Shown here: one piece after another, positions 55,859 to 60,768 of the stretch
Layout of the letters: each line of letters begins with the position of its first letter
Numbering within the stretch: position 1 is the first letter of the stretch
NCBI GenBank assembly: GCA_025057155.1
Contig: JANWYD010000003.1
Coordinates: 1 to 64,000 of the forward strand
DNA: 64,000 bases
DNA from: Chloroflexaceae bacterium
Lineage (GTDB): Bacteria > Chloroflexota > Chloroflexia > Chloroflexales > Chloroflexaceae
Reading direction: 5' to 3'
Position numbers and translations under genes: made by a program
The notes under the pieces: model-generated
Database searches by the model: none
The model's input: only the letters and a program-made list of their open reading frames with translations
Told to the model about the DNA's origin: nothing

Positions 55859-58204
55859 TTAACGCCTGACAACCGGCAGATACAACCGCTGCGGCCCCAG
55901 GTCGCCGATCACGGCTGCCGGATTGGTCGTCAGGGTCGCGCCGTCCTGAACGCCATCGGGGTCGCTGAAGGTCGCCCGCGCTCGCAGCGTGTCGAAGGGG
56001 CCGAAGTTGGCGCCGCTGAGGTTGATCGTCGCCCGGAAGGCCCCTGGCTCGCGCGTGGCCGGGGCGCTCTGGAACGCTGCCAGTTCTCCAGCTCTTGCCG
56101 GGCCGCGGATGACGTCCCACTCGATCGTCGCGCTGCCATTGCCGTTCAGATCGCTGCCGAAGGGCGCGATGATCGTGGCCTGGGTGCGCTGGGGGTTCAG
56201 TTGGATGATTAGCGGCGCGGTCACCAGACGGTCCGGGTCAGGCCCGCGGTTGATTGGCGTGAAGTTCGAAGCCAGGGGCCCGCTGGTCCGATACGGGTAG
56301 AAGGCCCCGAGCAGGGCCGGGATGCTCTGCTGGGTGGCGAGGAGGTTGTTGGCCGCGGGGTTGAAGCTGCCGCTCGCCGGGCCCCAGTGGTAAACGAAGG
56401 GGCCGTTGGGCTTCTGGAAGCTGGCCAGCGCGCCCAGGGGCCAGCGGCCCTGCTTGCGCCACTCCGGCCGGGTCAGATCCACCCCGGCGGCGAGCAGCCC
56501 CTGAATGGCGTAGGCCGTCGAGTTGCTGTTCACCGCGCCAAAGGCCTCCCATCCTCCGGTGGCGGCCTGGGTGGTGCGCAGATAATTGACGCCGTTAGTC
56601 ACAGAGGGCGCATTCGGCGCGACGCCGGCAGCGATCAGCGCCTGTAATGCCAGACCGGTCTCATCCGGGCTTCCCCAGCTACCACTGGCTGTCTGGAGGC
56701 TGGTCAGGAAATTGATCGCCGCCTGGGGAATCGACTGGCCGGCCGCGACGAGGCCCAACATGGCGAAGGACTGGTTCGTGACGCTGGGCGTGCCGCTGGC
56801 AAAACCTCGTTGCGCGTCGGTGCTGTAGGAGCCGTTGGTCTGAAGGGTGGATTGCAGATCGCTCACTAGATTGAAACCCCCAAAACTGGCGGGATTGCCG
56901 CCCGCGGCCACCACGCCGATGATCAGCTTGCCGGTCTGGGCCGGGAAGATCCGGTTGCTATCGTCGCGGGTGTAGGTCGGCGCGGCGGTGGCCAGGTAGT
57001 CGAGGGGCCCGTTGTTGGCCGAGCTGCGGATCTGATTGGGGTTGTACCCGGCGGCCACGAAAGCGAAGAGCGTATCCAGCGTTCCGCCGGGTGACGAGGC
57101 GCTCCCGAAGTCGGGCCAGCCGCCATCGGCATTTTGCAGCCCCCTGAGGTAGGCCAGCGCCCGCTCGACTCGCAACGTGCGCCCCAGGAACAGGGGCTGG
57201 TCGGTGAGGCCGTAGAGGGCCTCCAGGGTGGCGTAGGCATTGAAGAAGCGCAGGGCGATGACGCCCTCGCTGTTCTGCAGCCCGCGCAGCGCCTGCCGCG
57301 GATTGGTTCCGCCCGTGCCCCAACTGCTGGTCATCGGCACGTAGCCATAGGCCGACAGGGCGGTCATAGCCCAGCCGCTGCTGTTGGCCGGTTCGCCGCT
57401 GCCGATGTCTCCCCAGAGGGCCGTGCGCGAGGTCTGGTTGGCGCGGAAGAAGGCCACAGCCCGTTGCACCGCCGGATGGGTCGGCGGCACGTTGCCGCTG
57501 CCGATCAGCGCCAGCAGGCCGTAGCCGGTTACATCAATGTTGTTGATCCAGCTCCCGTTCTCGCGCTGCCGCTCAATCAGCCACTGCGTCGCCGCAGTGG
57601 GGATGGGGCGTCCCGCGGATACCAGGCCCAGGATTGCCAGGGTCTGGTTGATCTCACTGGCGCGCCCGCTGGCAAAGCCCTCGACCGCATCGGTGCTATA
57701 CGTGCCATCGGCGCGGTAGACCCCCTCGAGCGCGGCGATCAGGTCCACGCCGCCGAAGTTGCGCGGGTTCAGCCCGGCGGCGCTCACCGCTCCCAGCACC
57801 AGCCCCGCGCGACCGGGGAAGAGATTGTCGGTTGCCGGCGTATCATCCTTATAGATGTAGCCGACGGTTTCGGCGGCCAGATAGTCAGCCAGGGTCCGGT
57901 TGTTACTGGAGACCAGGGCATTGGCCGGGTAGCCGACGGCATTCAGCGACATCAGCAGCCGGCTGGTGCCGCCGGGATCGGCGCCGGCCCCGAAGGAGTT
58001 GATGCCCCCGCTGGCCACCTGCTGGGTCCGCAGGTACCCGACGGCCCGTTCAATCGCCTCACTCTCGAAGTAGGGATAGGTGGCGCTCGCCGACTGGGCC
58101 GGCTCGGTCGCCAGGCTTACAGGTGCGCGTCCAAGCGCAATTGTGCCGAGCGCCAGGGCAATAACGAGCGTCAGCAGCGCCGACCAGGAGCGTTTGCGGT
58201 TCAT
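55859..58204 (-). CDS. Secreted double alpha/alpha-toroid protein, transcobalamin/prenyltransferase-like, with LPV tail
   Basis: 781 residues; ATG at 58204 with GGAGA upstream. Signal peptide about 1-32. Residues 45-340 and 344-580 are tandem copies of one helical toroid: each has a Y(L)R..Q..GG start, PGGT...L...AAGY, FGG..L..L, YSTDA.(R)GFASG, NQ..A.LGL..AG..IP and LQ...GSW. This is the prenyltransferase/terpene-cyclase fold, also used by the alpha domain of intrinsic factor and transcobalamin. No catalytic DxDD motif is seen. A beta-sandwich domain (about 663-768) and terminal RLYLPVVRR follow. Its place between two BtuF-like genes below a B12 riboswitch suggests surface corrinoid capture; this is inference. 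Confidence 0.8.
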   Translation of the reverse strand: MNRKRSWSALLTLVIALALGTIALGRAPVSLATEPAQSASATYPYFESEAIERAVGYLRTQQVASGGINSFGAGADPGGTSRLLMSLNAVGYPANALVSSNNRTLADYLAAETVGYIYKDDTPATDNLFPGRAGLVLGAVSAAGLNPRNFGGVDLIAALEGVYRADGTYSTDAVEGFASGRASEINQTLAILGLVSAGRPIPTAATQWLIERQRENGSWINNIDVTGYGLLALIGSGNVPPTHPAVQRAVAFFRANQTSRTALWGDIGSGEPANSSGWAMTALSAYGYVPMTSSWGTGGTNPRQALRGLQNSEGVIALRFFNAYATLEALYGLTDQPLFLGRTLRVERALAYLRGLQNADGGWPDFGSASSPGGTLDTLFAFVAAGYNPNQIRSSANNGPLDYLATAAPTYTRDDSNRIFPAQTGKLIIGVVAAGGNPASFGGFNLVSDLQSTLQTNGSYSTDAQRGFASGTPSVTNQSFAMLGLVAAGQSIPQAAINFLTSLQTASGSWGSPDETGLALQALIAAGVAPNAPSVTNGVNYLRTTQAATGGWEAFGAVNSNSTAYAIQGLLAAGVDLTRPEWRKQGRWPLGALASFQKPNGPFVYHWGPASGSFNPAANNLLATQQSIPALLGAFYPYRTSGPLASNFTPINRGPDPDRLVTAPLIIQLNPQRTQATIIAPFGSDLNGNGSATIEWDVIRGPARAGELAAFQSAPATREPGAFRATINLSGANFGPFDTLRARATFSDPDGVQDGATLTTNPAAVIGDLGPQRLYLPVVRR

Positions 58205-58316
58205 GGCTCGTTTCTCCGATACTACAGCGACATCTCGTCGTGGCGGGGATTTTCGGAGGGGTGAAGCCCCTCCGAGCCTCCTCATTAAAGAAGAAGTATC
58301 GTTAACGTGCTTTCTT

Positions 58317-58335
58317 GGGAGGGCTTTGCCCTCCC
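58317..58335. repeat. G/C palindrome
   Basis: GGGAGGGCTTTGCCCTCCC; a second, GGAGGGGTGAAGCCCCTCC, is at 58255-58273. Both lie in the gap before the toroid gene. Confidence 0.6.
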
Positions 58336-58371
58336 CTTTGGCAGAGACGAGAAGGAATGTCTCCGGTCCTC

Positions 58372-58424
58372 CCACCTCCACACCTCCACACCTCCACACC
58401 TCCACACCTCCACATCTCCACACC
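58372..58424 (-). repeat. Octamer tandem repeat (GGAGGTGT) on minus strand
   Basis: About six units of GGAGGTGT read on the minus strand, starting exactly at the stop codon of the 58424 lipoprotein gene. Same octamer as at 20986-21057. Confidence 0.85.
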
Positions 58425-59719
58425 TACTCCAGGCGCTGGTAGAATACGAACTCGTGGTCCGGCAGCAATTCAGGGTGGAAGATGGCGATCAGGTCGGCCA
58501 GCACGAGATCGGGGTTGGTCACGCCGGTTTCCCAGTAGTCATTGCCGCCGTTGGCATTCAGGCGCCTGTTGTTGTTGTAGACCCTGCCGTTCTGGAAGGC
58601 GGCGAACTGGGCGAAGCGCTCGTCCTGGGCCAGACCCTCGGCCAGGGTTTTCCAGGAACCGGGGTTGACCCAGATGTCGGCGTCTTTAGCGCGGTCGAGC
58701 ACCTCCTCGAAGCTCAACTGCATACTGCCGGTCGAGGTGTCATCGGCCCAGAGGTAGGCCGCCCCTGCGTCGGCCAGGAGCTTCGCGGCGTAACTGTTGC
58801 CGCCGGGCATGTACCACGTGCCCCGGAAGGGCGCGCCGGAGAAGACCGTGGGCTTGTCGGTCACCGCCTGCGCTTTTGCGGCCATCTCGGCGTAGCGCCC
58901 GGCGATCCCCGCATACACCTCGGTGGCCAGCGCTTCACGGTTGAAGAAGGCGGCAGTGAACTTGATCCACTCGGCCCGTCCCAGAGGGGTTGGTTCCATG
59001 TACTCGCTGTTCATGGCCACCTTCAGGCCGGCTTCGAGCAACTTCGGGTGCGAGTCGAACTCCGGGTTGCCCACGCCGTAGGTCATCACCAGGTCGGGTT
59101 CGAGATCGATCGCCTGCTCAACGTTCAACTCGGCCCCGCTCCCGATCTCCTTCAGCTTGCCGGCCTCGATCAGCTCCACCACCTCGGGCGTATTGATGTA
59201 CTTGAAGGTGTCAACGCCCACCAGGCGATCCAGCAGATCGAGTTCCTTCAGGTGCGGCAACTGGGTGGTAGACATGGTGATGATGGACTTCACCGGCACC
59301 TCGATCACCTGGGCATCGCCCACGTCTGGCGGGGCGGGGGTGCCGCACTGCACCAGCACGTAGCGAAACTGGACATCGGCGTCGCGCCAGGGGTTGAGCA
59401 CGGTTATGAGCTTGTAGTTGTTGAAGTACTCAATGGTCCAGCCGGAGGCATCTTCGAGGGTGACCTTTTCAGGGAAGTAATCGAGGTCGGGGTCGTAATC
59501 GGTGACACAGCCTTCGGTGAGGTTGGTGACGGGCGCTTCGAGAACCGCCACCGTGGGCGCGGGGGTAGGAGGGGCGGCAGTAGGCGCGGGCGGAGGGGTT
59601 GCGGTAGCCGGCGCCGCTGGCGTGGCCGTGGGCGTCTGAGTGGCGCGCGGGCCGCCACAGGCGACGAGGGCGATGGCGAGGAGCAGGGTGGCCATCCAGG
59701 AGAGTCGGAAACGCGACAT
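58424..59719 (-). CDS. BtuF-type ABC substrate-binding lipoprotein (copy 2)
   Basis: 431 residues; ATG at 59719. Lipobox LVAC, Ala/Pro/Thr linker, then TEGCVTDYDPDLDYFPEKV and FRYVLVQCGTP as in the 43682 paralogue, with which it shares most of the mature protein (DVGDAQVIEVPVKS, NGGNDYWETGVTNPDLVLADL, IFHPELLPDHEFV). It has no permease directly beside it and may share BtuCD copy 1 or 2. It is the first large gene below the cobalamin riboswitch. Confidence 0.85.
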   Translation of the reverse strand: MSRFRLSWMATLLLAIALVACGGPRATQTPTATPAAPATATPPPAPTAAPPTPAPTVAVLEAPVTNLTEGCVTDYDPDLDYFPEKVTLEDASGWTIEYFNNYKLITVLNPWRDADVQFRYVLVQCGTPAPPDVGDAQVIEVPVKSIITMSTTQLPHLKELDLLDRLVGVDTFKYINTPEVVELIEAGKLKEIGSGAELNVEQAIDLEPDLVMTYGVGNPEFDSHPKLLEAGLKVAMNSEYMEPTPLGRAEWIKFTAAFFNREALATEVYAGIAGRYAEMAAKAQAVTDKPTVFSGAPFRGTWYMPGGNSYAAKLLADAGAAYLWADDTSTGSMQLSFEEVLDRAKDADIWVNPGSWKTLAEGLAQDERFAQFAAFQNGRVYNNNRRLNANGGNDYWETGVTNPDLVLADLIAIFHPELLPDHEFVFYQRLE

Positions 59720-59793
59720 GGAGTTTCCCTTTCGTACCGAACTGGGGAGCGGACCTGTCCCTGGGTATGTAACGATGAGGCGTGGGCGCCTCA

Positions 59794-60009
59794 TCACGGG
59801 CCACGTTCATCAGCGCAGAACCACGGCGATGAGCGCCGCAGCAGGCGCAGCAGCGCCGCCTGGCGCGACCGTTCCCAGGCGAGGCGCGTCAGCGCGGTAT
59901 GCGCGGCGGCGGTGGGCAGCCAGCCGAGCAGTTCCATCTCCTGCTCGGCCTGCGCGGCGCGTTCCATGCTTGCCGCCAGTTCGTGCCAGAGTTCGTCGTC
60001 GAGGTGCAT
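59794..60009 (-). CDS. Small helical protein of unknown function
   Basis: 71 residues; ATG at 60009 with AGGA 6 bases upstream. MHLDDELWHELAASMERAA and AHTALTRLAWERSRQAALLR predict two or three helices. It is the first gene after the riboswitch terminator and precedes the BtuF-like gene by 74 bases. No family recognised; it may be a real small protein. Confidence 0.5.
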   Translation of the reverse strand: MHLDDELWHELAASMERAAQAEQEMELLGWLPTAAAHTALTRLAWERSRQAALLRLLRRSSPWFCADERGP

Positions 60010-60189: not shown

Positions 60190-60318
60190 TAGTCTGTGAA
60201 CGAAGGTTCCTTTCATTTCCGCCCCCCTCCCAACCTCCCCCCGTTGGGGGGAAGAGCCGGACTCCCTCCCCCAGCGGGGGAGGGGGCGGAGTTACCGAAA
60301 AACTTCGTTCACCGAGTA
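60190..60318. repeat. Family A foldback element, copy 4
   Basis: 129 bp, left end TAGTCTGTGAACGAAGGTTC, right end imperfect (TACTCGGTGAACGAAG on the complement). Interior palindromes CCCCGTTGGGGG and CCCCCAGCGGGGG. Separated from copy 3 by 5 bases. Confidence 0.75.
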
Positions 60319-60460
60319 CTTAGACTCGCTACCGCGGACGGCCTTCGCGTCTTAATTGATAGTAGTAATCATTAATCTTGTGCCTGACAAAAGGGATTGG
60401 ACAGGTTCTGCCCACCTCATCCCTCCTATGGCTAGCCGGAGGGCTGCGCTGTGATCCAAC

Positions 60461-60491
60461 AAAAAGCCCCCGCCTCATCAGAGAACGGGGG
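60461..60491 (-). terminator. Intrinsic terminator of cobalamin riboswitch
   Basis: Stem CCCCCG (60486-60491) with CGGGGG (60467-60472), a 13-base loop and a run of five T (60461-60465). The leader ORF stop codon (60478-60480) lies in the loop. Confidence 0.82.
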
Positions 60492-60543
60492 TGACGGGTA
60501 CGACCGGCGCCTGTATGGAGAAGGGTGCTGGGGCGCGGGCCAT
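60478..60543 (-). CDS. Leader ORF, 21 codons, between aptamer and terminator
   Basis: ATG at 60543 with AAGGAGG 6 bases upstream. It encodes MARAPAPFSIQAPVVPVTPV plus Leu; five of 21 residues are proline. The stop codon lies in the loop of the terminator hairpin, so a translating ribosome would cover the 5' arm and prevent the hairpin. Not a known peptide family. It may be a regulatory leader rather than a stable product. Confidence 0.5.
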   Translation of the reverse strand: MARAPAPFSIQAPVVPVTPVL

Positions 60544-60581
60544 GTTCGTCCTCCTTGGCTCGAGAAGGGCGGAACAACAAC

Positions 60582-60706
60582 GTCGCGGCAGGCATCCTGA
60601 CTTCCGGCGTTCGACTGAACAGCCGGTTACAGTTGCGGCACAGCGCTGGACTTGCACCAGCTTCCACCTTTATGCCCTGGCATCCGGGCCAACGGGTCAC
60701 CGCGAC
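60582..60706 (-). promoter_or_regulatory. Cobalamin (adenosylcobalamin) riboswitch aptamer
   Basis: Minus-strand RNA with the conserved B12 core: GGAAGCTGGTGCAAGTCCAGC, then GCCGCAACTGTAACCGG, and GTCAGGATGCCTGCC near the 3' end. Closing helix P1 is GTCGCGG (60700-60706) with CCGCGAC (60582-60588). Cobalamin riboswitches shut off B12 uptake and synthesis genes when coenzyme is plentiful. Here the downstream genes are BtuF-like lipoproteins, the toroid protein and btuFCD, exactly as expected. Confidence 0.93.
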
Positions 60707-60739
60707 AGGTATTGGGTTGCGTAGGTGCTGATGGCGCAC

Positions 60740-60768
60740 ATTATACGCAGAAGCGTCGAAACGTGCAA
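60740..60768 (-). promoter_or_regulatory. Promoter of the riboswitch transcript
   Basis: -35 TTGCAC (60763-60768), 17-bp spacer, -10 TATAAT (60740-60745). The predicted start near 60733 leaves about 27 bases before the aptamer. Confidence 0.75.

Follow-up and report, generated by a model that had tools for sequence, protein, structure and literature searches.

A cobalamin riboswitch with a short leader open reading frame and an intrinsic terminator in Chloroflexaceae, and a putative role for leader translation

The locus in the window

The window, that is, the whole stretch of DNA analysed here, comprises positions 1-64,000 of contig JANWYD010000003.1 of the Chloroflexaceae bacterium assembly GCA_025057155.1 (64,000 nucleotides). 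Close to its end, the minus strand carries a cobalamin riboswitch (leader L088 in our set), followed by a leader ORF, a terminator and a putative B12-uptake operon, the unit that the switch would control. The features, in the order of transcription, are the following; P13 and P14 are names coined here.

60740..60768, minus strand: promoter (TTGCAC 60768-60763, 17-nt spacer, TATAAT 60745-60740)
60719-60570, minus strand: cobalamin riboswitch aptamer, RF00174 (55.1 bits, E 6e-11)
60544..60575, minus strand: hairpin P13, predicted fold
60575-60572 with 60547-60544, minus strand: outer stem of P13, GUUC:GAAC, predicted fold
60568-60563 with 60555-60550, minus strand: inner stem of P13, CCUUCU:AGGAGG, predicted fold
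60562-60556, minus strand: loop of P13, CGAGCCA, predicted fold
60550..60556, minus strand: Shine-Dalgarno sequence AAGGAGG, six nt before the ATG; its AGGAGG is the 3' arm of P13
60500..60543, minus strand: hairpin P14, predicted fold
60543-60538 with 60505-60500, and 60536-60532 with 60511-60507, minus strand: pairings of P14, AUGGCC:GGUCGU and GCGCC:GGCGC
60478..60543, minus strand: leader ORF of 21 sense codons, MARAPAPFSIQAPVVPVTPVL (ATG 60543-60541, TGA 60480-60478; orthologs L079 and L082)
60529..60543, minus strand: first five leader codons, MARAP, matching the recurrent M-x-R-A-P-stop
60461..60491, minus strand: intrinsic terminator (stem 60491-60481/60476-60467, loop UGAU 60480-60477, U run 60465-60461)
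59794-60009, minus strand: 71-codon ORF with no Pfam or NCBIfam match, before the binding-protein ORF
58424..59797, minus strand: periplasmic binding protein, Peripla_BP_2, BtuF-like by context (Pfam PF01497, E 9.9e-29)
55859..58423, minus strand: squalene-hopene-cyclase-type repeat protein, 854 aa (Pfam PF13243/PF13249; NCBIfam SCO2321 family below cut-off)

An earlier note, made from this sequence alone, had described a promoter, a B12 aptamer, the arrangement AAGGAGG-N6-ATG, a proline-rich 21-codon ORF and a stop codon in the terminator loop, and all of these are present on the minus strand. The -10 element of the promoter is perfect (6/6), although the -35 element is weak (3/6 to TTGACA), which is why a consensus promoter scan reported none at 60768-60740. 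The aptamer score is well above the gathering score of 31.5 of the RF00174 covariance model; comparison of the L5 and L13 loops side by side, by eye, established no complementarity or covariation for a kissing interaction, and we claim none.

The terminator is GC-rich, with TTTTT following the stem, and its four-base loop holds the leader stop codon. It is one of three terminator-like sites found on both strands of 601 bases, compared to 0.4 (sd 0.7) in shuffled sequences, and it lies between the aptamer and the downstream genes, the arrangement that characterizes transcription attenuators. The region from the end of the aptamer to the U run (60580-60461) is predicted to fold into three consecutive hairpins, P13, P14 and the terminator (-43.7 kcal/mol, z -1.62, matched or exceeded in stability by 13 of 200 shuffles). 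In this fold, P13, directly behind the aptamer, encloses the Shine-Dalgarno sequence and the spacer, and the leader AUG forms the first three pairs of P14.

A dispersed repeat of about 140 bases (window 60190-60330) is located downstream of the terminator and ahead of the binding-protein gene. It has 71 matches in the same genome; the element is partly palindromic, so that some of these matches are identical sites read on the other strand. The 854-aa repeat protein might resemble the alpha/alpha barrel of transcobalamin and bind B12.

The window leader contains five prolines and, at codon 6, GCA in place of a stop codon. The 21-codon length and the same end in the terminator loop are kept in L079 and L082, which belong to two other species in the same genus. 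Compared to the window leader, L079 shows five synonymous and three non-synonymous codon changes (31% synonymous being expected for single changes) and L082 shows none and two, respectively, which at the sequence level is weak and mixed evidence of coding beyond codon 5. The same genome contains three further RF00174 matches, and all four show the P13 pattern; their leaders are 21 codons (the window), 13 codons (MDHAPDTFPHPGR, L109), five codons (MTRAP, L074) and none (L072) long. In L072, AAG replaces ATG and the P13/Shine-Dalgarno hairpin is present; the ORF that follows is one that we take to be a corrinoid adenosyltransferase.

The Shine-Dalgarno hairpin and a recurrent five-codon leader

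Sequence comparison and structure prediction jointly establish the anatomy described above, the recurrence of P13 with the Shine-Dalgarno sequence and start codon, a five-codon ORF of the form M-x-R-A-P-stop, and the longer form in the window. The 41 Chloroflexaceae genomes yielded 118 RF00174 matches, 115 of them over the cut-off; all were fetched. An expression for the P13/Shine-Dalgarno hairpin fits 63 of the 118. Across the order, the P13 hairpin pattern occurs in 43 of 82 genomes, and 20 of the 22 pattern matches outside the family were fetched (L272 and L273 were left out of the set), all 20 carrying RF00174. The resulting 83 homologous tails comprise the 63 from the family and these 20, the latter, all outside the window's family, having been picked by the hairpin pattern itself, which biases the set toward it. 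A further 72 B12 leaders lie outside the 83, namely, 55 family matches and 17 from two other families; they include L090 (MTRAP-stop), L096 and L105, which the hairpin expression missed. A sub-threshold hit, L304, was left out. The tails are related and paralogous, so that all tests given here overstate independence.

A 4-bp outer P13 pairing over the spacer can be formed in 70 of the 83 tails, including the GUUU:AAAC and GCGU:ACGC variants, and is more stable than with shuffled upstream bases (mean z -1.63). Against swapped upstream bases, the native ones give the outer stem no advantage (mean rank 0.56), and the pattern, as far as sequence comparison goes, is accordingly one of conservation more than covariation. 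The predicted sequestration of the Shine-Dalgarno sequence in a hairpin downstream of the aptamer, formable in the same 70 of 83 tails, is typical of riboswitches that turn translation off; the sequestered site belongs to the 21-codon ORF and not to a structural gene, given that the next ORFs stand beyond the terminator. The earlier note had proposed that B12 blocks leader translation, and such blocking is possible to the extent that the Shine-Dalgarno sequence is the 3' arm of P13 behind the aptamer in the predicted fold; on this model, B12 should hide the Shine-Dalgarno sequence and start of the leader via P13. In three tails of genus g4 (Chloroflexus, judging by contig names) and in L125, AAGGAGG is replaced by AAGAAGG.

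A start codon is located 5-9 nt behind the Shine-Dalgarno sequence in 62 of the 83 tails, compared to 164 of 664 downstream control windows, so that its presence is beyond chance. Among the 62 leaders with a start, 32 have a stop exactly at codon 6, as against 1 of the 21 tails that have no start there (Fisher p 8e-5); after thinning to 66 tails below 85% identity, 47 retain a start and 21 have five codons. The next commonest length after five is 21 codons (four leaders), and 9 of the 62 are free of stops in the 160 nt read. The five-codon leaders are similar in sequence: 21 of the 32 read M-x-R-A-P-stop, 23 end in R[A/G]P, and the final codon is for proline in 28. In codons 3-5 of these 32 leaders, minority letters number 14, 12 and 46 at codon positions 1, 2 and 3, respectively, and the stops are TGA (22), TAA (7) and TAG (3).

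Part of the pattern in codons 3-5 may be explained by the structure of P14, in which many third codon positions are unpaired. The P14 region folds somewhat better than shuffles (mean z -1.15, 76 leaders), several of the folds being shortened by the rule used for the start of the terminator. The choice of stop codon and the presence of five-codon ORFs under other P14 folds (L075, L112, L187 and L188, with the peptides MLCFP, MPYTF, MNRPP and MQPPT) speak against structure as an obvious explanation. We also considered that the start codon is kept solely as a part of the P14 helix; the pairing can survive without an AUG there, as ACAGA..UCUGU in four Roseiflexus-type tails shows, and 62 of the 83 tails keep the start.

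Taken together, these observations make leader translation likely, and the five-codon leader of many relatives suggests that translation matters for the switch. Conservation of the leader in relatives, which the earlier note had named as a check, holds for the start codon and, in about half of the leaders with a start, for a stop at codon 6; the 21-codon length is kept in the orthologs L079 and L082. The converse case, in which the Shine-Dalgarno hairpin is present and the start codon at that distance is missing, which the note had named as an argument against the leader, occurs in 21 of the 83 tails, one of them, L072, in the same genome; such tails count against a role of the leader and show that the ORF is dispensable. 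The window leader is a longer form of the five-codon leader, and the five-codon form is presumably ancestral.

Several variants stand apart. In the Roseiflexus-type leaders L190, L195, L196 and L200, ACAGA..UCUGU takes the place of ACAUG..CAUGU adjacent to the terminator; the change is compensatory and abolishes the start codon at its usual position. In eight leaders of genus g4 (L044, L050, L052, L060, L068, L073, L084 and L106), the usual start is missing and P13 is kept; all eight precede one same gene type, which we take to be cobO-like. Among the 72 leaders outside the 83, an SD-like motif with a start is present in 25, of which 16 have at most eight codons (a raw count with a loose motif); the short ORFs include MTDP-stop, MTEP-stop, MTR-stop, MARF-stop and MRRSP-stop. 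MTDP or MTEP accounts for five leaders, MRRSP for one. The leaders L117, L118, L120, L124 and L126 have another B12 platform, with a four-codon M-T-D/E-P-stop behind an SD-like hairpin.

Routes from the leader to the terminator

The model that we favor, and to which we assign an even chance of being right, is that of a B12-OFF riboswitch in which P13 contains the ribosome-binding site for a short leader ORF that is translated, and an intrinsic terminator follows downstream; in this model, we infer B12 binding, the direction of the switch, translation itself and the shares of the two antitermination routes. With B12, P13 would be locked, and the Shine-Dalgarno sequence, the spacer and the AUG would be buried in P13 and P14; the leader would go untranslated, the terminator would form, and the binding-protein operon would be off. 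Without B12, P13 would open, the freed P13 strand could pair with the 5' arm of the terminator, and ribosomes would translate the leader. In the window copy, with no stop at codon 6, the ribosome could then run into the terminator and block its folding.

How far a ribosome could reach was assessed for the 56 leaders that have a start and for which a terminator was scored. Four of them (L079, L082, L088 and L098) have the stop within the terminator, 3 have it less than 20 nt before the terminator and 31 at least 20 nt before it; in the remaining 18 the stop lies beyond the terminator or nowhere in the 160 nt read. By these distances, the terminator is out of reach of a ribosome that translates a five-codon ORF. 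The automatic scoring of terminators drew them too long in at least L046 and L107; 7 of the 83 tails, among them L192, L193, L198 and L201, have no scored terminator and are absent from the terminator tests. The earlier note's proposal that leader translation covers the 5' arm of the terminator can thus work in the window copy but is not supported as the general mechanism, given that 31 of 56 leaders stop at least 20 nt upstream. The 21-codon form that ends in the terminator is local, being found in three species of one genus and one further case, and as a general feature it was rejected (4 of 56 leaders).

An alternative that dispenses with translation, and that we consider possible, if less probable than not by a fair distance, is an attenuator made of RNA only. 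The P13 loop and 3' arm (CGAGCCAAGGAGG) would be the antiterminator strand for the 5' arm of the terminator, and locking of P13 by B12, through the aptamer, would free the terminator to fold; the AUG and the SD-like AGGAGG would be by-products, and the close stop would merely keep stray ribosomes off the terminator. In the permutation test, for which 76 leaders were thinned to 62, pairing of the P13 strand with its own terminator arm averages -8.43 kcal/mol, compared to -7.75 +- 0.18 for permuted partners (0 of 2000 permutations as low), and in Chloroflexaceae alone -7.80 compared to -7.44 kcal/mol (p 0.029, n=50). The complement of the first four P13 loop bases is present in 31 of the 62 leaders, as against 25.1 +- 2.3 permuted (p 0.013), and the loop variant CGUG is matched by CACG in two of the six leaders that have it (L062 and L188). 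Among individual leaders, the pairing spans 7 bp in L204, and its energy is -13.5 kcal/mol in L190 and -13.8 kcal/mol in L191; the 21 tails with no start codon in place fit this explanation as well. On the other hand, shuffle controls are weak or negative, with a mean z of -0.54 when the terminator arm is shuffled and +0.33 when the P13 strand is, and the window's own pairing is weak (-6.6 kcal/mol); furthermore, a switch of RNA only does not predict the start codon in 62 of 83 tails or the tie between the stop at codon 6 and the start. On balance, sequence comparison lends an antiterminator of this kind weak, mixed support. The 3' strand of P14 as a second antiterminator for the terminator arm is unsupported (mean z +0.49, n=56). 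In 70 of 76 truncated folds, three or more bases of the terminator arm pair with P13; this count was dropped as evidence because the shuffle test shows little excess.

A bolder version of the translational model, which we regard as unlikely, is that the B12 riboswitches of Chloroflexales target a five-codon M-x-R-[A/G]-P-stop gene directly, RAP before the stop being a minimal natural arrest peptide. A held ribosome, not RNA alone, would then decide terminator read-through or mRNA survival, and in variants with longer leaders, such as that of the window, the ribosome would itself move into the terminator.

We consider it very unlikely that leader translation covers the 5' arm of the terminator throughout, with B12 blocking that translation: the Shine-Dalgarno sequence inside P13, the four stops inside the terminator and the 18 leaders without a stop before the terminator end would fit, but so many leaders stop well short of it, and the copies in the window's own genome have 21, 13, five and no codons. 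Proline before a stop codon slows termination, and a leader ribosome pausing on R-A-P-stop might shield the 5' end of the read-through mRNA, B12 being a second lock that exposes the mRNA to nucleases; the proline-stop of 28 of 32 five-codon leaders and the well-kept strong Shine-Dalgarno sequence would agree with this scheme, but the window copy has no proline-stop and start-less tails exist, which makes it highly improbable.

If leader translation, as in the favored model, belongs to the switch, then the switch would be a single relay that links a metabolite-sensing riboswitch with a ribosome and an intrinsic terminator. Selection would be acting on a very short coding sequence, that of the recurrent five-codon peptide, whose RAP-stop end allows one to ask directly whether an arrest tripeptide can function at a stop codon. 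SD-like B12 hairpins far upstream of genes may, more broadly, be genuine translation starts.

Comparison with known systems

In the pyrBI attenuator of Escherichia coli, translation of the leader into the terminator prevents termination; this system senses UTP through pausing of RNA polymerase, with no riboswitch, and the likeness fits only extended leaders such as that of the window.

Gating of a translated upstream ORF by a riboswitch is already known, and the close published cases that we found are mycobacterial, using reinitiation or Rho. According to the accessible part of the source, a hairpin of the ppe2 B12 riboswitch of Mycobacterium tuberculosis masks the Shine-Dalgarno sequence of the short translated uORF uPPE2, which is required for downstream expression (PMC11260477). 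As described there, coupling in ppe2 is by termination-reinitiation, the uORF and the gene overlapping in AUGA, whereas here an intrinsic terminator surrounds the leader stop. The window leader ends at 60478, 469 nt before the 71-codon ORF (starting at 60009) and 680 nt before the binding-protein ORF (starting at 59797), unlike the overlap in ppe2, and the locus does not have the layout for reinitiation of this type. In the pe20 Mbox of M. tuberculosis, again by the accessible part of the source, a translational platform controls the conserved small uORF rv1805A together with premature transcription termination (PMC12810186); there, the ligand is Mg2+ and termination is Rho-dependent, in contrast to B12 and an intrinsic terminator here. 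Among the matches listed, which exclude subscription papers, we found no earlier report for this lineage of a B12 riboswitch joined to both a five-codon leader and an intrinsic terminator.

The end of the five-codon leader resembles arrest peptides of the RAPP type, including CruR, whose RAPP motif, in the part of the source available, keeps operon transcription on (PMC9426467): in both, R-A-P or R-G-P would stand next to the ribosomal P site. The accessible text on ApcA, ApdA and ApdP gives the arginine of R-A-P as irreplaceable and a change of alanine to glycine as permitted in ApdA and ApdP (PMC12992588), and a further source, likewise in its accessible part, places proline or glycine in the A site during R-A-P stalling, with a change of the A-site proline relieving the stall (PMC10951233). 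As these sources present them, RAPP-type peptides thus have longer chains and a proline or glycine codon after R-A/G-P, whereas here the five-codon leaders have a stop codon in that place and the window leader has the alanine codon GCA.
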